Origin: Paenibacillus marchantiae
GTDB taxonomy: Bacteria; Bacillota; Bacilli; Paenibacillales; Paenibacillaceae
Assembly: GCF_028771845.1 (NCBI RefSeq)
Contig: NZ_CP118270.1
Span: 2,666,001 to 2,730,000, forward strand
DNA: 64,000 bases
Reading direction: 5' to 3'
Shown here: one piece after another, positions 20,248 through 57,928 of the stretch
How positions within the stretch are numbered: the first letter of the stretch is position 1
How the letters are laid out: the number at the start of each line of letters is the position of its first letter
Position numbers and translations under genes: made by a program
The notes under the pieces: model-generated
The model's database searches: none
Told to the model about the DNA's origin: nothing
The model's input: only the letters and a program-made list of their open reading frames with translations

Positions 20248-21140
20248 TGGATTCATCCAAGATGATACTGGACCGTGAAGAGCAGTTTCAGATCATGCGT
20301 CGTGAGGTCAGGGAAGGCCTGGATTTAACTTCTTCTGCGGGAGACGAAGAACTGTGGCAGGGAATCGAGCGTAAAGTACTTTCTGACCCGAAACTGGATG
20401 ATCTGACCTCCGGGGAGCGTCATACGCTGGTACAACGGTTATTCGACTCCTTTCGAGGGCTGGATATTCTGCAACCCTTGGTGGATCATCCCGAAATTAC
20501 GGAGATTATGATTAACAGCCACCGGGAGATATTCGTTGAGCAGGAAGGTGAAGTCAGACAGATCACGCTGGAGTTCGAGTCCAGGGAACGACTGGAAGAC
20601 ATTATCCAGATGATTGTATCCGGGGTGAACCGGATTGTGAATGAGTCTTCTCCAATCGTGGATGCGCGGTTGAAAGACGGCTCTCGGGTCAATATCGTGT
20701 TGCCTCCTATTGCATTGAAGGGTCCGACTATGACGATTCGGAAATTCCCAAGTGAACCGATGAAGATGTCCGATCTGATTGGTAAAGGTGCCCTGCATGA
20801 GAAAGCGGCAGAATTGCTGCAGCAGTTGGTACGCAGCAAATACAATATTTTTATCGGCGGCGGAACCGGGTCGGGGAAAACTACTTTCCTAAATGCATTA
20901 TCTCAGTTTATCCCGGCGGATGAACGGATCATCACGATTGAGGACTCTGCTGAATTACAGATTGTCACGGTACCCAATCTGGTATCGCTGGAGACGCGTA
21001 ATGCCAATACCGAAGGCAAGGGGCAAATATCTATTCGTGATCTGATCAAGTCATCCTTGCGGATGCGTCCAAATCGAATTGTCATTGGTGAGGTGCGGGG
21101 GGCAGAAGCGCTGGATATGTTGCATAACACGGCTATATAA
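20247..21140 (+). pseudogene. tadA: Tad pilus ATPase TadA/CpaF, 5' half, interrupted by the element
   Basis: TadA/CpaF is the hexameric secretion ATPase that drives Tad pilus assembly. This half holds 292 native codons: the N-terminal domain, Walker A GGGTGSGKTT, the Asp box and Walker B RIVIGEVRGAEALDML. After base 21122 the frame enters the inserted element and adds only His-Asn-Thr-Ala-Ile before a stop. The missing part (AMNTGHDGSLSTGHANT with the His box, and the C-terminal domain) is at 57503-57928. ATG 20247 overlaps the tadZ stop by one base. The truncated product should be inactive as an assembly ATPase. Confidence 0.92.
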
Positions 21141-21147
21141 ATGGATA
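21108..21147. other. attL: left attachment junction
   Basis: Chromosomal tadA sequence (GCGCTGGATATGTTG) runs to 21122, the shared core is CA at 21123-21124, and element sequence begins TAACACGGCTATATAAATGG. A two-base core is what serine integrases use. The element arm is related by inverted symmetry to the arm at the right end. Confidence 0.8.
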
Positions 21148-21170
21148 TGAATTAAAAAGGAGACTAGAAT

Positions 21171-21350
21171 ATGAGAAAAATGCTTGCTACAACAGAAGAT
21201 TTCGAACGATATATGAACTTTAAACGACCAATAGTTGTATTGTTTAATAGTGAAAAAGAAGAGGGAGTGATCACATCCCACAATGATTTTACAGTCAAAG
21301 TAAACGGTAATTACTTTGGAAGGGAATCATGTGAGTTTTGGTCAAAGTAG
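21171..21350 (+). CDS. 59-aa protein at the left end; candidate excision (directionality) factor
   Basis: The first gene inside attL starts at ATG 21171 behind AAAAAGGAGACTAGAAT and encodes 59 residues (MRKMLATTEDFERYMNF...). It is beta-rich with a basic-acidic mix and has no membrane segment or clear HTH. Its start is 46 bp from the core. In SPbeta the 58-aa directionality factor SprB lies at the end opposite the integrase, the same layout as here. Function is inferred from position and size only. Confidence 0.6.
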   Translation: MRKMLATTEDFERYMNFKRPIVVLFNSEKEEGVITSHNDFTVKVNGNYFGRESCEFWSK

Positions 21351-21406
21351 AAAGTACGTTCGCGTTTATGGTATAATATTCCTGATCACAACATAGAGGG
21401 AGAAAT

Positions 21407-21673
21407 GTGAATTTGGGATATCGTACTTTATTCAAAATTATGTCTGGAATTACTCTTGCATCGCTAATTTTTTTATCATCAACAATCATTTTCAAAATTA
21501 AACCAGCTACTAAATACTCTGATCCCAGCTTAGGATTTCAAACGATGGGATTCGAGACACTTGAGAAATTGCAACGTGTAGTAATTGATCCAACCAATAT
21601 AGTAATTGCACTGATTGTATTAGCCTTTTCAATTTATTGCATGTACTACATAAAACGATATGAAACAGCCTAG
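21407..21673 (+). CDS. Small two-helix membrane protein
   Basis: This 88-aa protein has hydrophobic helices at residues about 10-27 (FKIMSGITLASLIFLSS) and 62-80 (IVIALIVLAFSIYCMYYI) and a short tail KRYETA. GTG 21407 follows AGAGGGAGAAAT. Family not recognised. A hairpin with T-run (CACACGGCTGTTTTTT) follows the stop. Confidence 0.6.
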   Translation: MNLGYRTLFKIMSGITLASLIFLSSTIIFKIKPATKYSDPSLGFQTMGFETLEKLQRVVIDPTNIVIALIVLAFSIYCMYYIKRYETA

Positions 21674-21762
21674 ACAGCCTCACACGGCTGTTTTTTATTT
21701 GCCCTCAAACTATATGTCCTACTTTTAAACTCCAGCACAACTAAATCTATCCCTATACAATC

Positions 21763-21834
21763 GTGTCACGGGTGACACTTTGGTTCCGAATTTAGAAAAT
21801 GCAACGTTTACTACCGTGCTGTCATCAGTTGACA
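21763..21834. promoter_or_regulatory. Two palindromic operator candidates upstream of the DGQHR gene
   Basis: GTGTCACGGGTGACAC (21763-21778) is a perfect 16-bp palindrome. TGTCATCAGTTGACA (21820-21834) repeats the TGTCA/TGACA half-sites with a five-base centre. Both lie 120-195 bp before the two-gene regulator operon at 21957. The half-sites suggest a dimeric DNA-binding protein; autoregulation by the downstream pair is a guess. Confidence 0.55.
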
Positions 21835-21956
21835 CCCTATAGTTTGTTAACACCACGTCAACTTCTACCAACCATTTGATTTACAACCTATACGTATCAT
21901 TACGTTTAAAATCATTTTGACAGGTGCTATACTGTGTATAAGGAGTGAATATACAT

Positions 21957-23276
21957 ATGAAGATAGATAGAACAGAAGTTGAACAAATCCTTTTGACTCA
22001 TCTTGAAGTAGTTCTTAAAACTAAAAAATTAAAGCACCAAATACAGATTCAACTTATCGAATTAAATGTTCCAGTTGAAGAGATTGATTCAATCCTATCT
22101 AATGTGGAGTCTGTTTCCGATTTAGATGTTCCATTACTTTATGGCCTGACTAAGACGTTATACACAGTTACAGAGGATCAACAATTAGACCCAGATAGAT
22201 ATTTTGGTAAGCGAGAAATCAGTGAAGCTGAGGATATTCTTAGCCAATCAGTTCAAGAAAGAATTAGTTTGCCTATCCATTTTGAGGAATGTACAAAGAT
22301 TAAATTTGATAGCTTCATTACTAAGATTTCAATTCAAAACTTAGTCAAGTTGTACGATAGCCAGTTAATTATTTATGACGATGAAACACAACGTGGTGCT
22401 AAATATAAGACAAACAAATCAGGAGGTATAGTAAGGACTCCTATTGTAAATAAGGCCAGCGTTAAAAGGATCGCTGATAAAATGGCATCCAACAGTTATT
22501 TTGAAGATATGATCACTCTTAATGTATTCTCAAGTGAAGTAGACCCTGTCACGTACAATGAGGAGTCCAACACACTGACATTAAACGAGGGCGCTGTTAT
22601 ATCTATTCTCGATGGATTCCATCGCTTACAAGGAGGTGTGGTTGCTCTACAAACCAATCCACACTTAGACTTGGAGTTGATATTATCTATAAGATCATAC
22701 GACCATGATACAGCTCAAAGATACTTTGGTCAGATTAATACAGTTAACGTGCTACAGAGGGAAAGAAGAGAAGAATTAGCTCAAGAAAGATTGTCTGATA
22801 AAGTAGTGGCAAATCTGCAACGTAAGTCTGAAATCGGGAAACAGATTGCATCATCTAACAAAGTAAGTGATTTAGTTGGAGAACTCACTACTTTTGATAT
22901 CCTTTCTTATACAATAGATAAAGTGTTCATACTGGAAAGACAATTCGATGTGCTACAAACATCAGATTATTTAGTGGAGTTCGTTACTTATTTAGTTGGA
23001 AGTTATCCAAATGAATTCTCAATAAGTGTAAAAATACGAGTTAATCACATTATGAGCCACCCTCTAATGTTTATAGGATACATTGTTTTATCCCATTACA
23101 TGTATGAGAATAAGATTCCTTTACAGAAATTATCCCATTACATTCACAGCATTAATCTAGAAGATGAAGAATTATTAGATTTGCTCAATAAAAAGAAGAC
23201 ATTAACCGGAAACAAGCGTATACGTGAAGATCTTATCAAGTATTTTGACTCTGCATTCAGAGGTGTACAAAGTGAA
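21957..23276 (+). CDS. DGQHR-domain (DndB-like) protein
   Basis: This 440-aa protein has the family's hallmark segment near residue 217 as ILDGFHRLQGG, a variant of DGQHR, followed by RYFGQINTVNVLQRER. DndB, the best-known DGQHR protein, is a DNA-binding regulator of phosphorothioate genes, but no dnd genes occur here. ATG 21957 is preferred because AAGGAG lies 12 bp upstream. Its end overlaps the next gene's start. The pairing with a recombinase-like protein recalls YopQ-YopR of SPbeta in order and size. Confidence 0.65.
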
Positions 23277-24294
23277 TAAAATCTATGATGAGTCCTTCTA
23301 CAATTCAGCCGTGAAAGAAAGATACTTGAAAAATCAGAGTCAAGCAGCGAGAATCTCATATGGACGTGTACTCAAGAGAGCTTCGAGTATTGAAGCTAAA
23401 TTAGGTCGTGATCTATATGATTTTAACTTGGGCGAGATTAAACAGGTACTCCTTCTTTTAAAGTCCACAAAGATGACTACAATCACTGCTACAGGAATCA
23501 TAATACAAAATTATATAAGATGGGCTATAGAGCAAGATTTACGTACAGACAATATTAATCCTCTTGATGCTGTTAGTTCTGATGAATTTTATAGGCAATT
23601 TCTAGATACAAGTGAGCCTACATTATTCTCTCACGATGACATCATGGATTGGGTGGATGAGTGCATAAATCATCAAGATAAACTTGCCATACTCGGAATA
23701 TCTGAAGGCATATATGGCAGACAATACAGTGAACTTTTGACCCTTAAAATGGACAGAGTAAGAGAAGTTAGTAGCGATACGTTGAGTTATGAAGTTGAAT
23801 TATTCAATGAATCATCAGATGGCAGTAAAGAATCAAGAGTAATACCCATCTCAAACAAACTTTATAACATTATGAGAATTGCCAACAATGAAGAGGTCAA
23901 TTTCAAGAATAATGGATTAGAGTTTGAAGGCATGAGAAACAACAAAAACTATCTTACTAAAACGGACTACATAGTTCGTGGCGCGGCTGACGCACGTACA
24001 AAGGTGGAGGGTAATGTACCAGCAGCTTCTGCATTGATCAATAGAAGAATAAAGAAGATATCAGAGCTGTATCAAGTTCCTACTTTAACGCCTACAAATA
24101 TCAGAAACAGCGGGATGTTGTATACGGCACATGAACTGTATAAAGAAAGTGGTAAACTTGGTAAAGAGGAATATTATGCTATTTGTGAACGTTATAATGT
24201 AGGACGTACACGTGATGGAGGTTATGTTTACGCTAGATTGAAAAAGGATTTCTTGAACATGGAGAACCTTGAATTATTATATGGATTGGAATAA
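23272..24294 (+). CDS. Tyrosine-recombinase-fold protein, probable MrpR/YopR-like regulator
   Basis: The product has 340 aa. An N-terminal SAM-like core-binding region (TATGIIIQNYIRWAIEQD near residue 85) is followed by a catalytic-like domain with GIYGRQYSELLTLKMDRV and NIRNSGMLYTAHELYKES. The second segment corresponds to the HxLRHxFA box but has lost the usual histidines, which argues against active recombination. In SPbeta the master lysogeny repressor MrpR (YopR) is such a repurposed recombinase. GTG 23272 follows AGAGGTG. Confidence 0.6.
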   Translation: MNKIYDESFYNSAVKERYLKNQSQAARISYGRVLKRASSIEAKLGRDLYDFNLGEIKQVLLLLKSTKMTTITATGIIIQNYIRWAIEQDLRTDNINPLDAVSSDEFYRQFLDTSEPTLFSHDDIMDWVDECINHQDKLAILGISEGIYGRQYSELLTLKMDRVREVSSDTLSYEVELFNESSDGSKESRVIPISNKLYNIMRIANNEEVNFKNNGLEFEGMRNNKNYLTKTDYIVRGAADARTKVEGNVPAASALINRRIKKISELYQVPTLTPTNIRNSGMLYTAHELYKESGKLGKEEYYAICERYNVGRTRDGGYVYARLKKDFLNMENLELLYGLE

Positions 24295-24655
24295 ATTGAT
24301 CGCATGGGGTGGCACTTGATGTCACCTTTTTGTTTGCTACAATAAGTAACTCGAAGCAGTCAGATTTCGTCCCCTTGCCCATGAATAGGGATCATTATAA
24401 TGACTCCCCAACAGATTGTGGGCTGACCATGTTCTCCAAGTGGGGAATATGTCTCCTCAATTCTGAGGAAGCGACCTGCACGAAAATCAGGTAGGTAGTT
24501 TAGTTTCTGCCGGACAAAATGGCCACCAGAAATTTTAAAGCTTCCACGAAAATTTAGTATAACCCTTGATATATACCAAGTTAGTGTCTGATGTTGAACA
24601 TCCCCACATATAAAGTGGACAAACAAAAAGCACCCCAAAAGGAGTGCCGATGTAA
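24295..24655. other. Gene-free stretch with terminators at both ends
   Basis: A hairpin GGTGGCAC...GTCACC followed by TTTTTG (24308-24335) should end the regulator operon. At 24617-24645 GCACTCC/GGGGTGC, read on the minus strand with a T-run, ends the leftward pair that follows. No protein-like frame is seen in the middle. Confidence 0.6.
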
Positions 24656-24979
24656 TTAGTCACCTAGTTCTATGATCAAATTTGAATAATATATTAGTTT
24701 TTTAAGATAATCTCTTTCTTTCTTAAGGCTCGCTATGTATTCAGGAGAACTTTTAGCAAGTTTAGCTCTTTGCTTTTTCAAATTAGCAATCGAACCTTTA
24801 ATTTTCTTAATTTGTTTTTGATAATATGCCAACTTTTCTAATGCGGTGCTCTCCTTTTTATCAGCAGCTTCTACTTTAGGTTGAAGGGCAGGAACCGTAG
24901 TTACAGTAGTAATTACAGAGAAACAGATTAAGGCGTTGACAATTTTAGTTAGGTTATTTTTTCTCACATGCAACACCAT
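24656..24979 (-). CDS. Secreted or membrane-anchored coiled-coil protein
   Basis: About 107 aa. An N-terminal hydrophobic segment (KIVNALICFSVITTVTTVPA) looks like a signal peptide ending near ...KVEAADKKES. The rest is a charged coiled coil (LEKLAYYQKQIKKIKGS...). The start overlaps the end of the Excalibur gene, so ATG 24979 or GTG 24967 is translated by coupling; the choice is uncertain. Confidence 0.55.
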   Translation of the reverse strand: MVLHVRKNNLTKIVNALICFSVITTVTTVPALQPKVEAADKKESTALEKLAYYQKQIKKIKGSIANLKKQRAKLAKSSPEYIASLKKERDYLKKLIYYSNLIIELGD

Positions 24980-25166
24980 CCCCGTCTCTATCCAATGCCT
25001 TACGATATCCTGGCTCACCTTTGTATAGAGGAGCTTTGCCAGCCTTTCTCACAGCAGTACAATTCTTGTAATACACTTTTTTTGCTTCAGCTTTAGGTAC
25101 AGCTATTACTAATACGTTTGCAACCAAAATCGTAGCTAACACAGTAAAAACTAATTTCTTTTTCAT
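24954..25166 (-). CDS. Secreted Excalibur-domain protein
   Basis: This 70-aa protein starts at ATG 25166 behind GAAGGAG. A signal peptide (LVFTVLATILVANVLVIA) is followed by an Excalibur domain: YYKNCTAVRKAGKAPLYKGE and the calcium-loop-like DRDGDGVACE. The two conserved Cys of the family are present. Excalibur proteins act at the cell surface; the role here is unknown. Confidence 0.85.
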   Translation of the reverse strand: MKKKLVFTVLATILVANVLVIAVPKAEAKKVYYKNCTAVRKAGKAPLYKGEPGYRKALDRDGDGVACEKK

Positions 25167-25261
25167 ACTTTGATACTCCTTCAATGTTTATGTAAGTTGC
25201 AAAGATAGTTTACCAAAAATATATGGGGGGTACTACATATTTCCTTTGACTGAAAAGTAAA

Positions 25262-32866: not shown

Positions 32867-33484
32867 TTATATCTGAGAAGGTTCTCTGTTAGTCGATAAA
32901 TCCAATGAGTATACAGTTATCTTTGCCTTAATTCCAAAGAAAAAATTTGGCGACCCACTAAATTCAATTGAAATTGCTGAATCATCAAGTAACATAATTA
33001 CGTTAGTAGAATTAAGCTTGGCTGCGAAATAATTTTCGCTAGTTTTAACCCAATTATATATTGCTAGATTGGGAAGGGAGTTGTCGGTAGATCTTGTGAA
33101 AGCATCTTGCTGACCTGTTTCCATTGAACTTTTACACGCTTTATTAGGTATAGTGATGGTTGTAGTATTTTTATCGGCCTCAACTTGTTTGGCCTTACTT
33201 AACAAAGTGTTTACGTCATTAGTAAGATTTAATGACTTACTCATTGAAAAGAACACACTAGAGGCGTTTATACTCTCATTAAAAGTTCGTGCAGAAGTTA
33301 CTTTGATTTCTTCAGCTTGTTTAAGCTTATCATTAGAATAAATGAGATTGCTACAGGAATATTCGGTGGAATCTGGGTTTTCCTTTAATCCAATATACAA
33401 AATCAATGGGATTAGGATTAAAGAGACAATTCCAGCCAGTGCATAAGATATGTACTTCAATTTATTCGTTTCATATAAATTCAT
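32867..33484 (-). CDS. Membrane-anchored protein of unknown function
   Basis: 205 aa from ATG 33484, behind AAGGAGGTGTTAC. One N-terminal transmembrane helix (YALAGIVSLILIPLILYIGL, residues about 14-33), then an extracellular-type domain with two cysteines. It stands alone against the direction of its neighbours. The same ribosome-binding site (GGAGGTGTTAC) precedes the other leftward membrane gene at 42604. Confidence 0.6.
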   Translation of the reverse strand: MNLYETNKLKYISYALAGIVSLILIPLILYIGLKENPDSTEYSCSNLIYSNDKLKQAEEIKVTSARTFNESINASSVFFSMSKSLNLTNDVNTLLSKAKQVEADKNTTTITIPNKACKSSMETGQQDAFTRSTDNSLPNLAIYNWVKTSENYFAAKLNSTNVIMLLDDSAISIEFSGSPNFFFGIKAKITVYSLDLSTNREPSQI

Positions 33485-33654
33485 GTAACACCTCCTTGAG
33501 TTGTATAAATTTGTACGTATGAGTGCAGAAAAAGATGCATTATTCATATATCTTTTATAACAACGTACCGCATATATCCAATAAAACAGGAATAATGTTA
33601 CAATAATTTCGGCTTAAAACTAGGTTTATTTCATAAAGAATAGGAGAATTTAGG

Positions 33655-39654: not shown

Positions 39655-40452
39655 GTGAAAAAAATGGAAATTTTTAGCCTTGATCACTTGTTAATAAATA
39701 TCAAAACTCTCTTAAGTTATAGTACGTCTTCTGAAAAGAGCAAACAAAAATTCTATTTAGACTTGGTTAAGAATGGGCAATGTTATGTGGTTGCAGAAGT
39801 TAATGGATCATTAACATTCACTCCAAGTAGATTTGCAGGCTATATCGACAACAATTTTGAAGAACATGACGGAGATCGCGGTCATGGTGGAAGAACAAAT
39901 ACTGCAATTAAAAAGATACTTGGTAATGAATATTACATAGAAGAAGTTGAAAACGAATTTTTAGAATTTTGTAACAAGTTAAATGTTAAGCCAGCTAAAA
40001 AGAAACGCAGGTACTGGGAAACTCGATTCCAAATATCGAATAGGGAAATAGAAGTACAAAAGTTAGTAACACAAAGAGATACATTAACTACATCAAGGCT
40101 AGGACAAGGATCATTCAGAGCTGCTCTTATTGAATATTGGCAAGGCTGTTCAGTAACTGGCTCTCAGAGACTTGACTTACTTAAAGCATCTCACATAAAA
40201 CCTTGGAAAGACAGTACGGATAATGAAAGATTGGATGTGTTTAATGGGTTACTGTTAACTCCAAATTTAGATGCTTTATTTGATAAAGGTTATATATCAT
40301 TTGATAAAAATGGAGAGATTATACTCTCGAAATATTTAACAGATGAGGATATTGCTAATATGGTGGTCAGTAGTTGCCTTATAAGAAAGCCACATCAAAG
40401 ACATCAGAAATATCTAAGATATCATAGAACGCATATATTTAATAAAATGTAA
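39655..40452 (+). CDS. HNH endonuclease
   Basis: 265 aa. The C-terminal HNH domain is clear: LDLLKASHIKPWKDSTDNER near residue 180, then LDVFNGLLLTPNLDALFDKG. This form (HNH_2 type) is common in restriction endonucleases and defence proteins. The N-terminal half may recognise DNA (GDRGHGGRTNTAIKKILG). Start GTG 39655 or ATG 39664; the ribosome-binding site is weak. No cognate methylase is adjacent, the methyltransferase-like gene being 3 kb away. Confidence 0.75.
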   Translation: MKKMEIFSLDHLLINIKTLLSYSTSSEKSKQKFYLDLVKNGQCYVVAEVNGSLTFTPSRFAGYIDNNFEEHDGDRGHGGRTNTAIKKILGNEYYIEEVENEFLEFCNKLNVKPAKKKRRYWETRFQISNREIEVQKLVTQRDTLTTSRLGQGSFRAALIEYWQGCSVTGSQRLDLLKASHIKPWKDSTDNERLDVFNGLLLTPNLDALFDKGYISFDKNGEIILSKYLTDEDIANMVVSSCLIRKPHQRHQKYLRYHRTHIFNKM

Positions 40453-41104
40453 ATTTTTTGTAAGTTGGGAGTGCAAAGCATGGCACGTGAATAAATGTGA
40501 AATAATGCATAAATAAGTCAACATTTCAAATAATCCTGTTACTATACGATTGAACTTTTGGAAAACGCTGAAATCCCTTGTCCTACCTACATTTTTTGAT
40601 ATTCCAATCGTAAAATTACAAAATTTTCTAATGTGTTGAAATCGTTGCTACGACTAGCTTTTTAGGGTGTTGTTGGTCATTTCACGATTGCGCTTACGAT
40701 ATAGGATAAATTGACCTCATAAAGAAGCTAAAACGTTGATTTAACTGCATAAATGGATAGTTGTTGTATCGTACACGATTGGAATCATGATCTATGTGAT
40801 TGTAATTTGTCGATTCAGTCAGAATCCGGTTACAGAGACGAATTTTTAAGACAGGCTCACACTGTCCAAAGGGACTTCGTAATTGTCCGATATTGTTCCA
40901 GTACCACATTGGTACGTGCCTACGATTGAAAAGCTGTGGCTAAAAGTATACTTTTTGAAAGACTCTTTCGGTGTATGTCAAAAGTAGTTTTGGTATGTTT
41001 CAAATACTGTAAAATTATATATAAAACATTTCAAAACTTATTATATACTTTTTGACACACTTTTTGGTATAATATCCTTAACGACATAGTAAAGGATGAT
41101 TAGT
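40453..41104. promoter_or_regulatory. Gene-free stretch with repeats upstream of the resolvase-like gene
   Basis: No protein-like frame is seen. In the last 160 bp TATACTTTTTGA occurs at 40948 and 41044, and its inverse TGTCAAAAGTA at 40976. Together they resemble the subsites of a res/recombination region or operator for the serine recombinase that starts at 41105. Confidence 0.45.
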
Positions 41105-41734
41105 ATGAGCGAGATTCGGAAGTATGGATACATAAGAGTTTCATCTAAAGATCAGAACGAAGCGAGACAGTTAGAAGCAATGAAGGACTTAGGTATAATG
41201 GATCGTGATTTCTTTATAGACAAACAGAGTGGTAAAAACTTTGACAGGCCATATTATCAAGCTTTGAAGAATGTGCTTCGTAAAGGTGATATTCTCTTTG
41301 TTAAAGAACTGGATCGTTTGGGACGGAATGCAGAAGAGATAAAGAATGAATGGCAGGATCTAAGCCAAAACATAGGTGCACACATTGTGATTCTGGATAT
41401 GGAAATGCTCGATACGAGGAAGTACCAGAATGGACTAGAGAAGGTTATATCAAGCATCGTATTAGAGTTGTTGTCATATATGGCAGAGCGCGAACGGGAA
41501 AAGATAAACGGTAGACAGGCTGAGGGAATAGCGGCTGCTAAGAATAACAATGTAGTGTTTGGTAGACCTAAGCAAGCAATCAACGATGAGTTTAAGCAAG
41601 CATACACAGAATGGAAACAAGGAAGGATTACAGCAGTTGCCGCAATGAGAAGGGCAGACATGAAGCCTAACAGTTGGTATCGCAGAGTAAAGGAATATGA
41701 ACAACAAGAAGCTAAAGCAAATGGCCTAAGCTAA
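41105..41734 (+). CDS. Small serine recombinase (resolvase/invertase type)
   Basis: 209 aa. N-terminal catalytic domain with KYGYIRVSSKDQNEARQLEA (nucleophile Ser near residue 12), ELDRLGRNAEEI and YMAEREREKINGRQAEGI, then a short C-terminal HTH (AVAAMRRADMKPNSWYRRVKEY). This is the Hin/resolvase architecture. ATG 41105 follows AAAGGATGATTAGT. Confidence 0.9.
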   Translation: MSEIRKYGYIRVSSKDQNEARQLEAMKDLGIMDRDFFIDKQSGKNFDRPYYQALKNVLRKGDILFVKELDRLGRNAEEIKNEWQDLSQNIGAHIVILDMEMLDTRKYQNGLEKVISSIVLELLSYMAEREREKINGRQAEGIAAAKNNNVVFGRPKQAINDEFKQAYTEWKQGRITAVAAMRRADMKPNSWYRRVKEYEQQEAKANGLS

Positions 41735-43049: not shown

Positions 43050-45026
43050 TCAATTTTTCAACATATACATGTTTTCTTCGAGTACCTGTTTACAGTATGT
43101 TGGACTAATTCCGTACTCCTTATAAATCTTAGTGAAGGCTAGTCCATCCTCATAGTGTAATTTATATATCCACTCAAAGTCACGAGCACGTCTTTTTATT
43201 CCTCTTTCTTTAGTTGTAAGCAAAAGGGCTCCTTTAGCGTTGAACATTTGCTTAATTGTCCACCAATCAGTTTCGGTTGTTTCTGCAATTTGTTCAAAAC
43301 TAAGTAAGTCTTCGTTGTACATTTTTAGCATCCGAGGGTAAAGTTGCTCGATATTTTCCCATTTAGGAGCTGAGGGTTCAACTACCCACTTTAGTTTATC
43401 GAAGTTGACTGAATCAGAGGCATAGATAGCACTTCTAATTAATTGATTCTCAGCGATGAATTTGTAGAATATCTCAATACGTTTATCATCATGTAAGACT
43501 ATTTTATTGACAAGGATACCAACGATTTTCCTCATGTCTTTCATTTGCAATTCGTTATTGATAATTTTTTGATATTTCTCCAGCAAAGGGAATCCTAATT
43601 GCATATAATTATGTTCCCTGTTCAGATCAAGATTTTCGTTTAATGCGGATAGTTCCTGTTTTAATTGCTCAAGATTACTCTCAATTAATTGCAATTTGCT
43701 CGATAACTCCTCTTTGGTTTTAATAAACCCATTAGCATACAGGTCAATATATCTTTCTTTGGACCTTTCTTTTCCCGTAATTTCTTTAGTAATAGAGTTT
43801 CTTCTTATTTCCATCTCATCAATTTTACTCTTATCTGATAATCGTTCTAATAATTTATCAGGATTAATGATGAACTTAGATAGTTCATTCCATACAATAG
43901 AGTCAATAATATCTGTACGCCAATTATGACCGAGACACACCTTGTTTGATTCCCCAGTTCCAACAGTAAATGACTTTCTTGTTTTTTGAGTGCAAGTATA
44001 ATATCTATGAGTTCCACTCTGTGTAACACTCGCCACTCCACCAGAGACAGCAGCTCCGCATCTGCCACATCTTACTACTCCCTTCAGCAGATAACCTTCT
44101 GAAGGTCTGCCTCCTTGTTTAATATTACCCTCCAGACATTTTTTTACCTTTTCGTAAGTTAATTCATCTATGTACATTGGAATAGTGATAGCCTTCCATT
44201 CATCTCTAGGTCTTGGTACTTGGACTTTCTCCCCATTTATTTGTTTAACCTCAGTTTTACCGTAGTAGTATATACCTTTATACGTCTCATTATTTAATAT
44301 TCTACTTATGGTTGCTTCGTACCATTTGTCTCCCTTTGGAGCACAATAATTATTTATTGATAGGTGCCTTGCTATCCCGGAACATGTTTCACCGCTCAGA
44401 ATCATTTTTACCATAGTAAGATATCCTTCTTTTTCTTTGGGGTTCTCCACTAAAGTTTGTAGTTCTTTATCATAAGTATATCCGTATAACCGATTCATTC
44501 CTGGTATTTTGTTGTTTGCTACCATTGCCCTTCTACCACGTTTTGTATTGGCTAGGATTTTTGCTTTGTTATATTGAGCTATCGAGCCCTGGATGTTGAA
44601 ATTGAGCATTGATTCGGCGTTGTTCTTATCTAAATCAAACTCTACAAAGTGTATATCACAACCAAGTTCCCATATCTTATGTGTAATCTGTTGTTGCAAA
44701 TGTAGGTGTCTGCTCAATCTGTCTGGGTGAAGGAATATTACTTTGCTACCAATACCTTTACTTAGCAAGAAGATAATATAGTTAAGCATTGGACGATTAG
44801 GATTATCCCCTGATTCTGCTTCTTCTCTTAGTACGATGATTTCATCTTCAGTTATGTTAAATTTGTCTTTTGCTTCTTTGACACATATCTCAATTTGTGA
44901 ACCGAGAGAATAATTATCGACTTGAATTTCACTGGATACACGAACATAAACGATAGCCCTAATCTTACCGATCAAGGTTACAAGCTCTTCCCTGGTTAGT
45001 TTTTCATTGTCTCTGAGTACTTTCAT
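43050..45026 (-). CDS. Second large serine recombinase
   Basis: 658 aa. The catalytic domain shows IRAIVYVRVSSEIQVDNYSL (nucleophile Ser near residue 35) and FLHPDRLSRHL. A recombinase domain (INNYCAPKGDKWYEATISRILNN), a zinc ribbon (VRCGRCGAAVSGG...YYTC) and a coiled coil (LQLIESNLEQLKQELSAL) follow, so all large-serine-integrase parts are present. It points left, away from both element ends, and is preceded by a 56-aa gene. It may belong to an older nested element. Confidence 0.9.
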   Translation of the reverse strand: MKVLRDNEKLTREELVTLIGKIRAIVYVRVSSEIQVDNYSLGSQIEICVKEAKDKFNITEDEIIVLREEAESGDNPNRPMLNYIIFLLSKGIGSKVIFLHPDRLSRHLHLQQQITHKIWELGCDIHFVEFDLDKNNAESMLNFNIQGSIAQYNKAKILANTKRGRRAMVANNKIPGMNRLYGYTYDKELQTLVENPKEKEGYLTMVKMILSGETCSGIARHLSINNYCAPKGDKWYEATISRILNNETYKGIYYYGKTEVKQINGEKVQVPRPRDEWKAITIPMYIDELTYEKVKKCLEGNIKQGGRPSEGYLLKGVVRCGRCGAAVSGGVASVTQSGTHRYYTCTQKTRKSFTVGTGESNKVCLGHNWRTDIIDSIVWNELSKFIINPDKLLERLSDKSKIDEMEIRRNSITKEITGKERSKERYIDLYANGFIKTKEELSSKLQLIESNLEQLKQELSALNENLDLNREHNYMQLGFPLLEKYQKIINNELQMKDMRKIVGILVNKIVLHDDKRIEIFYKFIAENQLIRSAIYASDSVNFDKLKWVVEPSAPKWENIEQLYPRMLKMYNEDLLSFEQIAETTETDWWTIKQMFNAKGALLLTTKERGIKRRARDFEWIYKLHYEDGLAFTKIYKEYGISPTYCKQVLEENMYMLKN

Positions 45027-45033
45027 CAAAAAA

Positions 45034-45204: not shown

Positions 45205-45495
45205 AATGACCACCTTAATAAGCTCAATTACTACTTGATTTTATTATCTCCTCCAAAAATACATTCTATTCTTTTGAATGAATTGAAAGAGTGAGGGAAG
45301 TAGAAGACAAGCATAAAGAATTTGACAATAGATTCTAGCGAACATTATTTCGTTTTATTTGGGCATATTGGAGAAATGGTTGCTAAAAGATATGTAGATT
45401 CTAAAAGAAGAGTTACTTCATACGAATAACCTGTCATCTATCCTACCCATATTCTTCATACTATAATGTGGATATACCAAAGAGGAGGGGATATA
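45205..45495. other. Divergent intergenic stretch
   Basis: It separates the leftward recombinase pair from a rightward HTH gene. A 35-codon open frame (TTG 45321 to stop 45428, EHYFVLFGHIGEMVAKRYVD) looks protein-like but has no ribosome-binding site; it may be a gene fragment. Confidence 0.35.
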
Positions 45496-46545
45496 ATGAC
45501 TGTTGCAGTAGATGAGCAGCAACAACTTAAAGCACTTATTAGACAGTACATAGACGAAGAAAGAAATGTTGAAAAGCTGGTTGATTACTTATCCAGGCAT
45601 GAGGTAGTTGGATTAGAGGTATTTGCATACTTAGGATTTGATAAAATGGATGGACATTTATTTCAGTCAGTTGCAAAAGATGTATTTATTAGAAGGATTC
45701 CATTTTATTTTCATCATTCGCAAGGAAATTTAGACAACCTAGGCACTTTGTATAACTTTGTAATTCGTATAATTGAATATTCCCGTATTAGTTATGAAGA
45801 GGAATTAGAACGTTTCTACATTGCACTTGAACAGCTTTATCACGACTATAGAATTGATACAGTTACTATCTTCAACTACACTATTAGGCAAACTGGATAT
45901 GTGGGCGAATTTGAATCTATTTACACTTGGTTGCATTACCTTGAATTGGCTCGGAAACTTGGTGTAGAAGAAAAAACTCCAAAGCATCTTATCGTGGACT
46001 ATAACATAGTCAGAGAGAGGGCTGGACTTAAGCCGATTATATATGAGATTCGTGATATGTATGTCGGAGACTACATTGAAAGAAACGGAAACATCTTAAA
46101 GATGGAAGGTATATTTCCATGTGATCGCAATAATCAACCTATACTGAAATGGATTGGTTTGAGGATTAAAAATGCAAAAAGGATTTGGGTTGATGTTAAT
46201 GATAGGCTTAAAGGGTTTCTGTATGTAGAAATAACGCCTAAAACAAAAGTGTGGGGGCTTAATGCGTATGGGGAAGCTGAAGATGGTTCAGACGTTTGGT
46301 ATGACCTATATACAGGCCCATTGTTAATGGAGTTTGATTATACAGTAATTAAAGATAAACGTGTAGCGATAAAGATGACCCAGAAACAACTTGCTGAAGC
46401 AATTGGGGCCTCAGATCGAACTCTTCAAAAATGGGAACGTGGAGAAACAACACCTGATGGTCATTTTCTGCTTAGACTGATGAATGTGTTGGATATCAAG
46501 GAATTGAGTGAGATTACTAAGATACAGGATGTAAATGATATATGA
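45496..46545 (+). CDS. Protein with a C-terminal XRE helix-turn-helix
   Basis: 349 aa. The N-terminal 210 residues are helical and unrecognised; a beta-rich middle follows. The C-terminus (residues about 285-345) is a clear HTH: IKMTQKQLAEAIGASDRTLQKWERGETTPDG. ATG 45496 follows GAGGAGGGGATATA. The position and the diverging recombinase suggest a regulator of the neighbouring genes. Confidence 0.7.
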   Translation: MTVAVDEQQQLKALIRQYIDEERNVEKLVDYLSRHEVVGLEVFAYLGFDKMDGHLFQSVAKDVFIRRIPFYFHHSQGNLDNLGTLYNFVIRIIEYSRISYEEELERFYIALEQLYHDYRIDTVTIFNYTIRQTGYVGEFESIYTWLHYLELARKLGVEEKTPKHLIVDYNIVRERAGLKPIIYEIRDMYVGDYIERNGNILKMEGIFPCDRNNQPILKWIGLRIKNAKRIWVDVNDRLKGFLYVEITPKTKVWGLNAYGEAEDGSDVWYDLYTGPLLMEFDYTVIKDKRVAIKMTQKQLAEAIGASDRTLQKWERGETTPDGHFLLRLMNVLDIKELSEITKIQDVNDI

Positions 46546-50569: not shown

Positions 50570-51595
50570 ATGAGTTTGGCAATTAGCGCTAGTTATGAGC
50601 ATGAACATTATATTGCTGTAGATACTGCGGTATCTTTTAATCGAAAAGGAATTAGTTATAGAAATACAGACCCTAGAGAATATGACAAACTACATGTATT
50701 AGACGGAGAGGGGTACTTTTTCTCAGGAGATTCGATCTTATGTGTCAATACTTATGCTCGTTTTAAAAATCAGCCAGACAGAAGTTTCAAAAAGTTGTTA
50801 TCTATCGCAAAGGAGACATACTCTAAATTGGCTGATGAAGGAGATAAACTTGCCTTTGCTAAATATGGATTCGATAATGATTGCCGTGCCACCTTTGAAT
50901 GTATGGATAGTAGCAACTGGGATACAGGAAGGAATATATTCTATTACGGGAACCCCAAAATCAGTTACATAACTTATGGAGCTCAGATGCAAAAAGCAAT
51001 GAATGAGCTTGACAAGTATAAGAGTGGAGATCCTTCAATCCCTTCATTTTATCTACCTATTTATGAAGCTGTTGCTAATGAAGGCGTTGGTGGATCAATC
51101 ATCTTCTATCATCTAACACCTGAAAAATGGGAAATGTCTTCTGAAATTACTTTGAACGAACCTACTGATATTAAGAAAGCATCATTTTCGGATATTCAAT
51201 TAAAGAAGCAGCATACTTTTGTTGGATCAGGAGCAGACGCTTTTCCAGAGGTCACTTTGGGGGAGGGCGATGGAAATGGATTCGGAAAGGCAAAAATCTC
51301 TAAGCCGAATGGTTCATTAGATGTTGTGTATACTGCAAGCAACTTTGGACGTGAAAGAAGTGTGAGGTTCAAAGACAATGGAATCACATTAATTTCTGAC
51401 AATGGCTCTTTTACGGCAGAAAGTAAAGACTTCAAATTCATTGCTACAGAAAGTGGTTCATATCAGTTAGGATTGTCCAATGGCTCAACTTTTGAATTGA
51501 CAACATCAGGTCTTGGGATCGACATTCAAGGCGACATCAATATTAAGGCCACAGGAAACATTAAAATGAACGGTGCGCGCATCGATCTAAACTAA
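50570..51595 (+). CDS. Putative Ntn-hydrolase domain fused to a phage-needle-like C-terminus
   Basis: 341 aa. The N-terminal half (SLAISASYEHEHYIAVDTAVSF, then KLHVLDGEGYFFSGDS) has the strand pattern of proteasome-like Ntn-hydrolases carried by some phages. The C-terminal 70 residues are beta-repeats ending GDINIKATGNIKMNGARIDL, the form seen in phage baseplate hub and spike proteins. It could be a relic tail protein or a secreted effector; no other structural phage gene is near. Confidence 0.5.
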   Translation: MSLAISASYEHEHYIAVDTAVSFNRKGISYRNTDPREYDKLHVLDGEGYFFSGDSILCVNTYARFKNQPDRSFKKLLSIAKETYSKLADEGDKLAFAKYGFDNDCRATFECMDSSNWDTGRNIFYYGNPKISYITYGAQMQKAMNELDKYKSGDPSIPSFYLPIYEAVANEGVGGSIIFYHLTPEKWEMSSEITLNEPTDIKKASFSDIQLKKQHTFVGSGADAFPEVTLGEGDGNGFGKAKISKPNGSLDVVYTASNFGRERSVRFKDNGITLISDNGSFTAESKDFKFIATESGSYQLGLSNGSTFELTTSGLGIDIQGDINIKATGNIKMNGARIDLN

Positions 51596-53453: not shown

Positions 53454-53492
53454 ATTTATTGTCTGATGATGAGTGATTGGGGATGGTTGGTA

Positions 53493-53570: not shown

Positions 53571-53577
53571 CAAAGAA

Positions 53578-53784: not shown

Positions 53785-53843
53785 ACTTATTAAGAATAAA
53801 TATACAAACAAATATATAATGTGTCGTACATGGAGGTTTTATT

Positions 53844-54230
53844 ATGAGTATGGTAATGGAGCGTAGAGGAGTTGATAGCAAGACAGTAAAGCGATTTGAA
53901 ATTTGGGAAGCAGATTTAGGTTACAGAGAGCGTTCAATTCAAGGTGGTAAACGTCCTGTGCTTGTTATTTCAAATAATATCGGAAACAAATATGCGCCAA
54001 TTGTAATTGTAGTTCCTCTAACAAGCAAACTTAAAAAGCCTACACAACCAACGCATGTTTTCTTTGACTCAAATGAGTGTGGAATGGCAGATGATAGTAT
54101 TTTGTTGTGTGAACAAATAATGACGATTAATAAAGAAGAGAATTTATTAAGGAAGTTATTTGATATACCAACACATTATAACGATGAGATAACAAGAGCA
54201 TTGAGTGTTAGTATTGGCGTAATGAGATAA
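53844..54230 (+). CDS. MazF/PemK-family endoribonuclease toxin
   Basis: 128 aa. The family signatures are in order: EIWEADLGYRERSIQGGKRP, VLVISNNIGNKYAPIVIVVP, LTSKLKKPTQPTHVFF and DDSILLCEQIMTINKE. These proteins cut mRNA at short motifs. No antitoxin gene overlaps or precedes it; the next gene downstream is an HNH-like protein. ATG 53844 follows GGAGGTTTTATT. Confidence 0.85.
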   Translation: MSMVMERRGVDSKTVKRFEIWEADLGYRERSIQGGKRPVLVISNNIGNKYAPIVIVVPLTSKLKKPTQPTHVFFDSNECGMADDSILLCEQIMTINKEENLLRKLFDIPTHYNDEITRALSVSIGVMR

Positions 54231-54396
54231 TTAAGTATAAATATATGTACTTAATCAAAATAGTGTGATATCATTAAATTGTGAAAGGAGGGCTTGTAGC
54301 AAGCATATAGACAAATCTCATGCAGTCTATGTGAAATAAGATTTTCATTGTATTTTAAGAGTGAATATATAAAATAAATAAAGAAGGTGTTTTTTA

Positions 54397-55212
54397 GTGG
54401 CAGAAGATAAAAAGATGGGTAGACCTTACAAGTTAGATCCATCAGTGATAGAAAGATGGAAACAAGAATATGGCGACAATACATATTTAGTTAGGGGGAT
54501 TCTATGCACACAGGGTTTAATTGAAAATGGAATTATTATGGAAGAACATGAACTCGCTGCTTATTTACTCTACAAATCAGTAGAATCTCGCATCCATAGT
54601 TGTCGCTATGAGCAAGGGATTTATAAAGGGGTTCACTGTGAGTGGAGTGATCCGATTAGTGGAGTCAACTCCATTATTAAAATGAAGCCTGAGATGTGGA
54701 ATCAGTGGATTGCACAGACAAAATGCTTTCTTGATAATGACCAATGTCAGTCATACCGTCCAACTATTGACCGCAGAGATACTAATCCAGAGATAGGATA
54801 CAGGTTATCTAATATCACCATGCTTCCGTTCGGTCAGAACTCATATAAGGCACAAGCTAAGCCAGTATATGCTTTTGAGATGGGAAACAAGCAATCCAAT
54901 GTTCTCGGGACTTTCAAGAGGTATGACACAATAACAGATGCAAAGAAAGACATGGGTTTACCAAAGCTAGAAAACGATACTGGAGTGTTTACAAATACAC
55001 CTGATGGCAGAACGATTATTTTGCAGTCAAGCGATGCAACGGTTGGTCAGAAAAGTGTTGAAAGTGTGAGTAATGAGACTGAGCAGAAGTTGTATACGGG
55101 GTACATACCAATTGGACAGATAGAGATTGATGGGCAAGTGTACAATGTTCATCAACCATTTACTTTTGAGCAAATGCAAATTAAATTGAATGATCAAAGT
55201 ATAGATACATAA
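54397..55212 (+). CDS. HNH-like (homing-type) endonuclease candidate
   Basis: 271 aa from GTG 54397 behind AAGGTGTTTTTTA. The middle holds RPTIDRRDTNPEIGYRLSNI then TMLPFGQNSYKA, like the DRIdn-x-gY-x-x-NI-x-N pattern of phage HNH endonucleases. An N-terminal GRPYKLDPSVIERWKQEYGD could be a DNA-binding part. The C-terminus is unrecognised. Confidence 0.5.
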   Translation: MAEDKKMGRPYKLDPSVIERWKQEYGDNTYLVRGILCTQGLIENGIIMEEHELAAYLLYKSVESRIHSCRYEQGIYKGVHCEWSDPISGVNSIIKMKPEMWNQWIAQTKCFLDNDQCQSYRPTIDRRDTNPEIGYRLSNITMLPFGQNSYKAQAKPVYAFEMGNKQSNVLGTFKRYDTITDAKKDMGLPKLENDTGVFTNTPDGRTIILQSSDATVGQKSVESVSNETEQKLYTGYIPIGQIEIDGQVYNVHQPFTFEQMQIKLNDQSIDT

Positions 55213-55387
55213 CGAAAGAACAAGTTGGGCTATCTAGATTCAATTATAAGCCTACTAACCATTTCATCTTAAACTACACTTAACACAAATGAAACGATGC
55301 TTAGAATCGATTCCAGAAGATATAGCAGGGTGACAGTAAGTGTTACCTAAGATAATAGTGAATAAGATAAGGAAGGATGATTAACAA
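55213..55387. other. Short spacer without recognised features
   Basis: AT-rich, no coding frame or hairpin of note; it should carry the promoter of the integrase transcript. Confidence 0.3.
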
Positions 55388-55714
55388 TTGATTGAAGCGC
55401 TCAAGTATGATGAAGGTGAGTTTTCCCTAATTGAACAAAAAGAATTTATAGCCTACATATGTCAAGAATTTAGCATTAACGAGCAATCCCTATACAGTGA
55501 CTACTATAAAAAATTGAAGGATGTCCAAGAGAAATGTAACCTGTCTGACGTAACAGATACTATTAAAAGGAATGCTGAAGCGATTAAAGGGTTTATTCAG
55601 CAAAATAATGACTACAACAATGATGTATTTACAGCTTTAGCAGTTATAAAATTAGGGATAAAGCTTCATTTAAACGAGAATTTAAATAGACTGAACATAG
55701 TATTACATAAGTAA
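55388..55714 (+). CDS. Unknown protein co-transcribed with the integrase
   Basis: 108 aa from TTG 55388 (MIEALKYDEGEFSLIEQKEF), behind AAGGAAGGATGATTAACAA. Helical, acidic. It ends 12 bp before the integrase gene, so it may take part in integration or its control. Confidence 0.55.
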   Translation: MIEALKYDEGEFSLIEQKEFIAYICQEFSINEQSLYSDYYKKLKDVQEKCNLSDVTDTIKRNAEAIKGFIQQNNDYNNDVFTALAVIKLGIKLHLNENLNRLNIVLHK

Positions 55715-55726
55715 GGAGAAATCGAT

Positions 55727-57451
55727 ATGATTGCAACTTTCTATGCTCGTGTATCAACAGATAGTGATGAACAAAAGAACTCAATTGTGAGCCAAGTAGA
55801 CTATTTTAATACATATCTTGATGAAAACAATTACCAGCATTCTAAAACAGGCGTGTTCTATAAAACAGATGGGACATTTACTTTAACAGATGGATATTAC
55901 GTTGACGAGGGGTTCTCTGGTGCAAAATCAAACAAATACAGAAAAGCTTTTCAAGAAATGATGAATGATGCACGAGCAAGAAAGTTCAACATAATACTTA
56001 CTAAAAGCATAAGTAGATTCGGGCGTAACGTTAAGGAATTATTGGCAGCAGTAGCTGAGTTAAGAAGCTATGACATTGCTGTGTACTTTGAGGATTTAAA
56101 AATTAACACAATGAACAGAGCCGATGACTTTAAATTGACTATCTTTGCAGCACAAGCAGAGGAAGAATCCAGAGCAAAAAGTGAAGCAGTGCAGTTTGGT
56201 AAACTTCAAGGCTATAAGAAGGGTGTATGGGGTGGTCGTGCTCCCTATGGTTATGATATTAGACAAGGGAAGTTAGCTGTTAATCCCAATGAAGCACCAA
56301 TTGTTAAAAGAGTATTCTCCATGTATCTAAATGAGTGTATGGGTTTAAGGAGCATAGCACAGCAGCTGAATGCTGAAGAAATTCCTACTAAACGCGGGGC
56401 TAGCCTATGGGATCAAAGTTTGATTTCAAAGATGTTGAAGAATGTTATATATACAGGCGAGATCAGGTTACATAGAACACGTAAGATTGATTTGAATCAA
56501 AATCTAATTAAGAAAATACCACCGGAAAAACAAGTCGTAACCTATGATGAAGATTTAGCGTTAATTGACATTGATGAATTCAAGCTAGTTCAGATAGAAA
56601 AAGAAAAGAGAAAAGATGACTTTGGTACATTAACTGTTAAAGAAATAACGGTAGAAAACAATGGAGAGATTGAGAAGCAAAAGGTGCATGTTTTAGAACG
56701 TGGTTCATCTAGACATTCATCAAAACACATTATTTCCAACATACTGAAGTGTGGTAACTGTGGAGGTAGTTTACGAAGAAAAGTCCAGCGTAATAAAAAC
56801 AGATCATTTATTCAATGGATATGTCGCAACAATGATCAGTATGGCAGAAAGGGTTGTCAGTATAGAAACCTCCAATACGAAGAAGACTTACTGGATTATA
56901 TAAAAAGGGAAATCAAACAGTATCGAAATAATGAACAGGTTCACCAAGAGAATCTTAATTACTATATCAAATCACAGTTTGATTTAAAAAATGTGGAGCG
57001 AGATATACAATCACTCAAAAGTGAGATTGGAGAATTAACTCAGGAAAGAGAAGTGAACTTTAGGCTTCTTACCAAAAGCATCATTGACGACAGCGAGTAT
57101 GAGCAACGTAACACCTCAATTCAGGCTCAATTGACTGACAAACAGAACAACTTATCACGGCTTGAGAATATTAGCATTGAGATTGAAAAACTTGAATTAC
57201 GTCATAAAAAGTTTTTGGCTTTTCTTGCTCAGGTTGATGTTGATAACCTAACCAATGCAACTCTAAGACAGATCATAGACAGATTCGAAGTAACATCACC
57301 TCAAGGAGCAGAGCCTTTGCCAAGATTCACACAACATGAATTCAAGGAAGAACAGTTAAGAATTTATTGGCGTGTATTCGGGAAATCGAGAGAAAGTGTT
57401 ATCGAAGATACCGTAAATAAGCTTATAGATGGATTCAAATTAGACAGCTAA
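55727..57451 (+). CDS. Large serine integrase of the element
   Basis: 574 aa. Catalytic domain with MIATFYARVSTDSDEQKNSI (nucleophile Ser at residue 10), ILTKSISRFGRNVKELL and FAAQAEEESRAKSEAV. Then the recombinase domain (GVWGGRAPYGYDIRQGKL, LISKMLKNVIYTGEI), a zinc ribbon (ILKCGNCGGSLRRK, WICR...GCQYR) and a coiled coil (LKSEIGELTQEREVNFRLL). It lies 52 bp from the right core, the normal place for the integrase that made the insertion. AAGGAGAAATCGAT precedes ATG 55727. Confidence 0.95.
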   Translation: MIATFYARVSTDSDEQKNSIVSQVDYFNTYLDENNYQHSKTGVFYKTDGTFTLTDGYYVDEGFSGAKSNKYRKAFQEMMNDARARKFNIILTKSISRFGRNVKELLAAVAELRSYDIAVYFEDLKINTMNRADDFKLTIFAAQAEEESRAKSEAVQFGKLQGYKKGVWGGRAPYGYDIRQGKLAVNPNEAPIVKRVFSMYLNECMGLRSIAQQLNAEEIPTKRGASLWDQSLISKMLKNVIYTGEIRLHRTRKIDLNQNLIKKIPPEKQVVTYDEDLALIDIDEFKLVQIEKEKRKDDFGTLTVKEITVENNGEIEKQKVHVLERGSSRHSSKHIISNILKCGNCGGSLRRKVQRNKNRSFIQWICRNNDQYGRKGCQYRNLQYEEDLLDYIKREIKQYRNNEQVHQENLNYYIKSQFDLKNVERDIQSLKSEIGELTQEREVNFRLLTKSIIDDSEYEQRNTSIQAQLTDKQNNLSRLENISIEIEKLELRHKKFLAFLAQVDVDNLTNATLRQIIDRFEVTSPQGAEPLPRFTQHEFKEEQLRIYWRVFGKSRESVIEDTVNKLIDGFKLDS

Positions 57452-57470
57452 TTGTAGCTGTTTTTCTTTT
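57445..57470 (+). terminator. Terminator of the integrase gene
   Basis: ACAGCTA, loop ATTG, TAGCTGT, T-rich tail. It overlaps the stop codon and should limit read-through into tadA' and tadB. Confidence 0.75.
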
Positions 57471-57478
57471 GTCTTATC

Positions 57479-57518
57479 GTAACCACTTATATGTACATAC
57501 TACAGGCCATGAACACTG
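57479..57518. other. attR: right attachment junction
   Basis: Element sequence (ACTTATATGTACATACTA) runs to 57502; the core is CA at 57503-57504; tadA resumes with GGCCATGAACACTGG. Pairing the element arms from both ends gives an attP with imperfect dyad symmetry: 15 of 24 positions match when one arm is inverted, with ATATAA and TGG shared. Confidence 0.8.
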
Positions 57519-57928
57519 GACATGATGGCTCGTTGTCCACGGGTCACGCCAATACGATCTCCGATATGATCAGCAGATTGGAGACCATGGTGCTCAGCGG
57601 AGCGGATCTTCCCATTGCGGTTGTCCGGCAGCAGATCAGCTCGGCCATTGATATCTTTGTACATTTATCCCGGCTGCGTGATCGTTCACGTCGGGTGACC
57701 GAGATTAGCGAAGTGATTGGCATGCAGGACGGAGAAGTACTGCTCAATCCACTGTTTCGTTTCCAGGAAATCGAAGAAAAAGAAGGCAAGATTATTGGCG
57801 GACTCGTGCAAGTTGGAACACTGAGACAAGTGGATAAAATTCAGATGGCTGGGCTAGCGGAATGGTTGAACGAGTACATAGAACGCAATAGTGATGAGTT
57901 GAATGGATCGGATAACAACGTGAAATAG
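57503..57928 (+). pseudogene. tadA: Tad pilus ATPase TadA/CpaF, 3' part
   Basis: 141 native codons plus stop: Q-A-M-N-T-G-H-D-G, then SLSTGHANTISDMISRLETM (the His box) and the CpaF C-terminal domain to DNNVK. The frame is in register with the 5' part across the core. An ATG at 57491, inside the element, is in frame and could start a short product, but without Walker A and B it cannot be an ATPase. Confidence 0.92.

Follow-up and report, generated by a model that had tools for sequence, protein, structure and literature searches.

A family of integrative elements splitting the Tad pilus motor gene of Paenibacillus at one CA, with a candidate excision factor inside attL

The split tadA gene and its att sites

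We analyzed a 64,000-nucleotide stretch of the genome of Paenibacillus marchantiae (contig NZ_CP118270.1, forward-strand positions 2,666,001 to 2,730,000; hereafter the window, its genome being labeled G000), in which the gene for the Tad pilus ATPase, tadA (cpaF), is interrupted after codon 292 by an element of 36,380 bp. As read directly from the letters, the 5' part of tadA extends from the ATG at 20247 to 21122 (292 codons) and is followed by a core CA at 21123-21124; the 3' part starts at the second core CA (57503-57504), comprises 141 codons (57503-57925), and closes with a stop codon at 57926-57928. The element's own end is at 57502 (57504 with the core), and 57928 is the end of tadA. 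Only CA is common to the two junctions, which read ATGTTG-CA-TAACAC on the left and ACATACTA-CA-GGCCATG on the right, and fusion at CA reads LDMLQAMNTGHDGSLSTGHANT, without a stop, which brings a 433-codon tadA back in frame, in agreement with the gene of intact relatives. Both the cut by an element of about 36.4 kb and the recovery of a single 433-codon frame by clean removal, as claimed in an earlier sequence-only reading of the window, were confirmed. The GC content, in 1-kb steps, is ~50% outside the element vs ~35% within it.

The features that define the split gene and the element ends are as follows (window coordinates, strand).

20247..21122 (+), 5' part of tadA (cpaF), 292 codons, including Walker A and Walker B, assigned from the sequence
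21103..21145 (+), attL, core CA at 21123-21124, element arm TAACACGGCTATATAAATGGA
21171..21350 (+), small open reading frame (ORF) of 59 aa, in sense and 48 bp inside attL, with an AAGGAG ribosome site and a predicted Hfq/Sm fold, a candidate for the recombination directionality factor
21348..21377 (+), promoter-like site (TATAAT, 10/12) following the small ORF, found at the same place in G036
55727..57451 (+), large serine integrase at the element end, 574 aa (Pfam Resolvase, Recombinase and Zn_ribbon), the presumed enzyme of the tadA att site
57442..57463 (+), terminator-like hairpin after the integrase
57481..57525 (+), attR, core CA at 57503-57504, element arm ACCACTTATATGTACATACTA
57503..57928 (+), 3' part of tadA, 141 codons plus stop, contiguous with the 5' part in 29/29 intact loci

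The end integrase has the domains of a large serine integrase, with E-values of 2.6e-24 (Resolvase), 5.3e-22 (Recombinase) and 7.2e-9 (Zn_ribbon); its frame is open, and both att arms are present. Around CA, the element-side arms form an inverted repeat; in nine elements, 12-19 of the 21 arm positions match, vs shuffle means of 6.0-7.7. The weakest case, G059, matches at 12/21 with a shuffle fraction of 0.0155, and by eye the arms of G080 are alike. A short non-palindromic core, a quasi-palindromic attP and the lack of a long direct repeat are the features looked for in large serine integrase sites, and the element-side sites have this layout.

As judged by the only other match in the 7.0-Mb genome (33% identity over 111 residues), tadA is single-copy, and the motor would therefore not be whole while the element is integrated. 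The 5' part of the window tadA is 94-99% identical to 29 intact loci.

Insertions at one CA and the cargo they carry

The identical CA junction is found in 12 genomes (G000, G036, G025, G059, G062, G075-G079, G080 and G293), with the reservation that the crossover cannot be fixed to CA alone where an element has further bases in common with the target, as in G076 and G293 and, to a lesser extent, in G078 and G079. Eleven of the 12 are Paenibacillus, and G293 is placed only as far as the same family. Within the genus, tadA is present in 75/75 genomes; its frame falls below 400 aa in six of them (G000, G036, G062, G008, G025 and G059) and is at least 416 aa in the remaining 69. G036, G059, G062 and G025 are cut at the same CA as the window. 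The sequence-only reading had proposed comparison with intact tadA in close relatives, and this was carried through: all 29 other genus loci that were retrieved are uninterrupted at the insertion point, and G015, conspecific with the window, has an intact tadA and no integrase relative at E ≤ 1e-40, which indicates that the insertion is polymorphic within the species. The 29 uninterrupted loci and the recurrence of the CA junction in 12 genomes speak against a chance split.

Relatives of the integrase lead to the same site. A pattern scan of one genome per species over 84,980 species, which is blind to relatives lacking both of two short patterns, yielded 77 integrase loci, and the nine best (at least 39% identity) are all from Paenibacillus and all adjoin a tadA half: sp. 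PCH8 (G036), sp. Fux382_bin13, dokdonensis, allorhizosphaerae, cellulosilyticus, paridis, glycanilyticus and two terrae strains (G059 and G062). No tadA half was found in the DNA, up to 10 kb, around the 68 distant loci (at most 32% identity), and a peptide-pattern search of IMG/VR found no integrase relatives. Among the 75 genus genomes the four best integrase matches all lie at a split tadA, and 11 of 394 family genomes carry the integrase at E ≤ 1e-90, with tadA split in ten and intact in the eleventh, G199.

Ten elements have both ends on one contig; they measure 18.6-41.6 kb, nine of them under 37 kb, and the integrase gene sits at, or within 0.7 kb of, one end in each. All ten (nine and G080) give an in-frame join, which makes the choice of site real. 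The integrase is the only gene cluster common to all ten, and on this basis we regard integrase plus att site as the unit and the cargo as modular.

The cargo varies accordingly in kind. The 41.6-kb element of G080 (P. glycanilyticus; L176, L177, L179) encodes a portal, head protease, major head, major tail, tape measure and Dit protein, and its gene content identifies it as a siphovirus-like prophage with the same tadA site and integrase subtype. Eco57I-type modification enzymes are carried by G075, a reverse transcriptase by G076, an AEP primase by G077, and AbiJ and HEPN domains by G059. In G079 (P. paridis), a GajB-like UvrD helicase (L174:386-2236) and an AriA/GajA/OLD-like AAA ATPase (L173:15785-18196) lie ~2 kb apart and may form a Gabija-like or related defence pair. 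A protein of 457-472 aa with an N-terminal helix-turn-helix and a weak TPR match was also observed at L036:12789-14204, with relatives in G059 and G025; it is reminiscent of the RRNPP/AimR-type peptide-sensing regulators.

The window's element has 63 predicted ORFs. Twenty were searched against PHROGs (14 of the 17 with at least 200 aa) and 20 against Pfam; together the searches cover 16/17 ORFs of that length, and the ORF at 32867-33547 (-) was in neither. Its recognisable genes, and those of the surrounding operon, are listed below.

18937..20247 (+), gene with a CbiA/MinD domain (Pfam PF01656), TadZ/CpaE-like, the upstream partner of tadA, whose start it overlaps
21945..23279 (+), DndB-family protein, SPbeta YopQ-like, 26% over 417 columns
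23224..24294 (+), MrpR (YopR)-like repressor of SPbeta type (Pfam PF22822/PF22823; PDB MrpR 8a0a, E 3.8e-27)
24954..25184 (-), small protein with an Excalibur calcium-binding domain
39655..40452 (+), HNH endonuclease
41096..41734 (+), small serine resolvase, whose cluster occurs in 8/11 elements and ranks next after the integrase
43050..45029 (-), second large serine recombinase, distant from the end integrase
45466..46545 (+), protein with a C-terminal Cro/C1 helix-turn-helix
47575..49509 (-), replication-type protein (phrog_25531) with weak helicase/primase similarity
50570..51595 (+), protein whose C terminus resembles a minor tail protein family (phrog_6211, E 1.3e-11)
53844..54230 (+), PemK/MazF-like toxin of a toxin-antitoxin system
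57945..59597 (+), tadB and tadC (T2SSF), downstream in the split operon
59781..60458 (+), TadE-like protein

The operon order is TadZ-like, tadA, tadB, tadC, TadE. Three serine recombinases are present in the element: the end integrase, the small resolvase and the second large one, which could be the trace of a nested element or a spare recombinase like that of the gin element of Bacillus cereus. YopQ and MrpR form an SPbeta-type pair in the SPbeta order and have relatives in phages. MrpR-type repressors were observed in 12/75 genus genomes (e.g. L067, L069-L072), 2/12 of them within tadA elements (G000 and G036), and by similarity the SPbeta MrpR module is therefore one that also sits elsewhere in the genus. 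No 11- or 13-mer is over-represented in G000 as would be expected of SPBRE-like MrpR operators, a search that divergent sites would escape.

The sequence-only reading had drawn a parallel to the prophages in comK and spsM. We rejected a prophage reading of the window's element: among the proteins tested against PHROGs, none of the capsid, portal and large terminase genes expected of an SPbeta-like phage was found, and 21123-45000 had no megablast match in 50,697 phage records. Weak PHROGs matches (E 0.004-0.006) point to a tape measure, a tail chaperone and a small terminase, the last via a helix-turn-helix. Relaxase and type IV secretion genes, the marks of an integrative conjugative element, were not found among the 20 proteins searched with Pfam, and PADLOC, applied to eight proteins of the element, matched only HNH and regulator models.

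The small ORF inside attL and transcription at the junctions

In 7/12 elements a small sense ORF begins 39-49 bp from the core (49 bp in G036). The ORFs of G000, G036, G075 and G077 are homologous and encode a single family of proteins predicted to fold like Hfq; two of these four elements have a right-end integrase gene in sense, and the other two a left-end one in antisense. A dissimilar ORF of 70 aa occupies the same attL slot in G059, G062 and G025, and the type of small ORF tracks the integrase tree. For the small ORF, ratios of nonsynonymous to synonymous substitution rates (dN/dS) are 0.09-0.31 in 8/9 pairs, one pair not being computable.

According to a single-chain structure prediction, the 59-aa protein would consist of an N-terminal helix and a five-strand barrel, that is, an Hfq/Sm-like fold, which suggests nucleic-acid binding; a profile search with the small ORF retrieved no Hfq among PDB sequences. 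The 70-aa ORF weakly resembles ribosomal protein LX and phi29 p6 in structure, a likeness on which nothing is built here. Because the small ORF is fixed at one att end, because its dissimilar kinds are interchangeable and because it tracks the integrase, we read it as a directionality factor, and we put the chances that the attL protein is the excision factor at roughly even.

The position of the small ORF, with the next 10/12 promoter-like site lying behind it, points to expression from the host side. A second promoter-like site (9/12) at 21142-21170 has its -10 abutting the start codon, and its transcript would begin inside the small ORF; this 1.1-kb scan gave six promoter-like sites vs 4.5 expected. 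A strict scan of the region up to the small ORF found none in 5/7 elements and junction-spanning sites in G075 (11/12) and G077 (9/12). The abutting site and the junction-spanning ones weaken the idea that the small ORF lacks its own promoter. In a laxer scan, a 9-11/12 site was found in all 11 attL sites scanned, including those without the ORF, with shuffle fractions of 0.002-0.082. A -35-like stretch of tadA precedes a -10-like stretch of the att arm by 16-18 bp in 9/11 attL sites, an arrangement that could constitute a junction promoter. There may accordingly be a weak junction promoter at attL, perhaps as a by-product of AT-rich integrase arms. For the promoter-like site that follows the small ORF, a LexA (SOS) box was considered and dismissed: the candidate at 21349-21362 is imperfect (2 and 3 mismatches), and the window holds 93 matches vs 103 expected.

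At the other end of the element, the hairpin after the integrase would keep integrase transcripts from the 3' part of tadA, and as a consequence the downstream tad genes are likely also silent.

Proposed mechanism, alternatives and known systems

Based on these observations, we consider it rather probable that a family of integrative elements occupies an exact CA in tadA and that predicted excision by the element's own integrase, together with a factor encoded at attL, would rebuild the gene in nearly all of them. The large serine integrase likely placed the elements at the tadA CA; in the integrated state the motor gene is cut and no Tad pilus would be assembled. Serine integrases of this type excise only with the help of a directionality factor (available text of PMC5595907; also established knowledge), and the end integrase should be no different. 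The small attL ORF would be that factor, expressed from the host side by read-through of the tad operon or from a weak junction promoter. The MrpR/YopQ pair of the window's element would keep the rest of it silent and confer a lysogeny-like stability; when repression is lost or the small ORF is expressed, the element would be excised and the pilus motor turned on. The element would survive as a passenger, in several relatives with anti-phage-type genes. Regulated switching of tadA is plausible under this scheme, in which pilus assembly likely hinges on the presence or absence of the element. A stronger version we hold to be unlikely, namely that host tad transcription through truncated tadA into the Hfq-fold factor cuts the element out and completes the motor, a self-curing insertion invented twice with two dissimilar proteins.

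The sequence-only reading had called the insertion reversible by design and would have pilus assembly depend on the element. In-frame removal stood, in ten of ten complete elements, as did the cutting of a single-copy motor gene while the element is in; design and regulation are presumptive.

Several results weigh against excision by integrase and attL factor. Five of the 12 elements (G076, G078, G079, G080 and G293) lack any sense ORF of at least 35 codons that starts in the first 150 bp from the core. A homology between the small ORF and SprB, the SPbeta excision factor, was tried and rejected (no sequence similarity, probability 0.1%), and a literature search found no serine-integrase factor with an Hfq fold. 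YokA-YotN chains do not occur among the 50 matches listed for the small ORF, which says nothing for or against a likeness. Three att-circle patterns gave 0 matches in viral_contigs. Compared with seven intact relatives, the dN/dS of G000 tadA is 0.018-0.053 in the 5' half and 0.018-0.125 in the 3' half, similar to that of intact-intact pairs, and nine of its 13 private codons are synonymous; such low values would fit purifying selection through excised cells or, equally, a young insertion. G199 has a related integrase (37-38% identity) and an intact tadA. In G293 the tadA halves are on two contigs, and the integrase lies 9.3 kb from the 3' half rather than at an end. In the one-contig genome G025, the left element end and the small ORF are present (G025:C1:4316687-4390000), but the 3' half of tadA was not found with a query that succeeds in G059 and G062, and no close integrase was found in the element; G025 thus looks like a decayed case, which suggests that the split state can become irreversible. 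Finally, relatives with tadA broken at other points had been named in the sequence-only reading as grounds for giving it up, and these were found in part: in G008 (G008:C68, L039-L041), another element of ~54 kb breaks tadA ~30 bp downstream of CA, but with a different large serine recombinase (24% identical) near its left end. Because of this difference the G008 break looks like a second landing and not a shifted one, and it supports a plain conserved landing site.

That tadA is an ordinary landing site, with a conserved stretch between Walker B and the His box in a dispensable gene, so that excision would be a mere exit and pilus control incidental, has in our judgment slightly better than an even chance. 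Most large serine recombinase clusters are predicted to be site-specific, and diverse ones can share one conserved coding site (available text of PMC10083194); the nearby G008 insertion, the persistence of the species of G025 without the 3' half, and the sparseness of insertions (six of 75 genus genomes with a tadA frame below 400 aa) all fit. What a landing site leaves unexplained is that two dissimilar small ORFs lie in sense 39-49 bp behind the 5' half of tadA in seven elements while the integrase gene moves. Equally Hfq-like but differently employed, the small attL protein could be an RNA-binding regulator of tad or element transcripts instead of an excision factor, which we regard as possible but less than evenly probable; the filling of the slot by a dissimilar protein elsewhere, as fits directionality factors, and the agreement of the small ORF with the integrase phylogeny argue against this role.

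The elements could also be phage satellites or mobile defence islands, moved by a helper phage and serving mainly in anti-phage defence, with tadA only as their home. The GajB-type helicase and AriA/GajA/OLD-like ATPase of G079, the Eco57I-type enzymes of G075, the reverse transcriptase of G076, AbiJ and HEPN in G059, the replication-type proteins, and the whole prophage that an integrase relative accompanies at the same site speak for such a role, which we entertain tentatively; no packaging or capsid-hijack gene was recognised among the proteins tested, and the window's element offers PADLOC matches to HNH and regulator models only (eight proteins), besides PemK in Pfam. A degenerate SPbeta-like prophage, stripped of its virion genes and reduced to repressor, integrase and att sites, would leave tadA in effect permanently broken. 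Such a history seems quite improbable: the MrpR and YopQ homologues in SPbeta order, the one tail-like protein and the siphovirus-like prophage of G080 are as it would have them, but small size is usual in the family (9/10 complete elements under 37 kb), the integrase frame is open with its att arms in place, and no decayed structural genes were seen among the proteins tested.

If excision by integrase and attL factor is true, the Tad pili of these soil bacteria, which serve adhesion and surface sensing, would be phase-variable through the element. The tadA insertions extend the range of genes split by mobile elements beyond those of sporulation and competence to that of a pilus motor, and at one nucleotide position a single integrase subfamily accompanies a prophage, an element with an SPbeta repressor, and others whose cargo includes defence-type genes. 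As far as our literature search goes, the target, the use of a single nucleotide by phage and non-phage elements alike and the constant place of a small ORF at attL are new: no title or abstract opening tells of a tadA/cpaF insertion in Paenibacillus, in a search that largely leaves subscription papers uncovered.

Among known systems, the Listeria comK prophages insert reversibly into a competence regulator gene (active lysogeny). Unlike the window's element they are phages, and the likeness is drawn from description and not from sequence comparison. Large serine recombinase families on conserved coding sites (prolyl isomerase, competence genes) resemble the present case in that diverse integrases converge on one site, and their targets are enriched in competence genes (available text of PMC10083194), but the words pilus, secretion and T2SS are absent from the main text of that survey.

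SPbeta in spsM of Bacillus subtilis, with SprA and SprB, likewise uses a large serine integrase and splits a host gene in frame (available text of PMC4191935 and PMC10516654). Its sprA and sprB genes are at opposite att ends, as the small ORF is opposite the integrase in G000 and G036, and its MrpR/YopQ pair has the identical order. SPbeta differs, however, in being a 134-kb phage, compared with 36 kb and no capsid, portal or large terminase found for the window's element, in SprB being without similarity to the small ORF, and in its target, a spore polysaccharide gene, with sprB having its own mother-cell promoter (same sources). The gin element in gerE of Bacillus cereus, with GirC and GirX, is a non-phage element of comparable size (28.6 kb) that splits and restores its host gene; like the window's element it has three serine recombinases, and its factor is 42 aa long (available text of PMC5595907). 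In gin, excision is demonstrated and timed to sporulation, and the target is a sporulation regulator, whereas the window's element splits a pilus motor gene and has a predicted excision (same source for gin). By analogy, the window's element appears closer to gin/gerE than to SPbeta/spsM.

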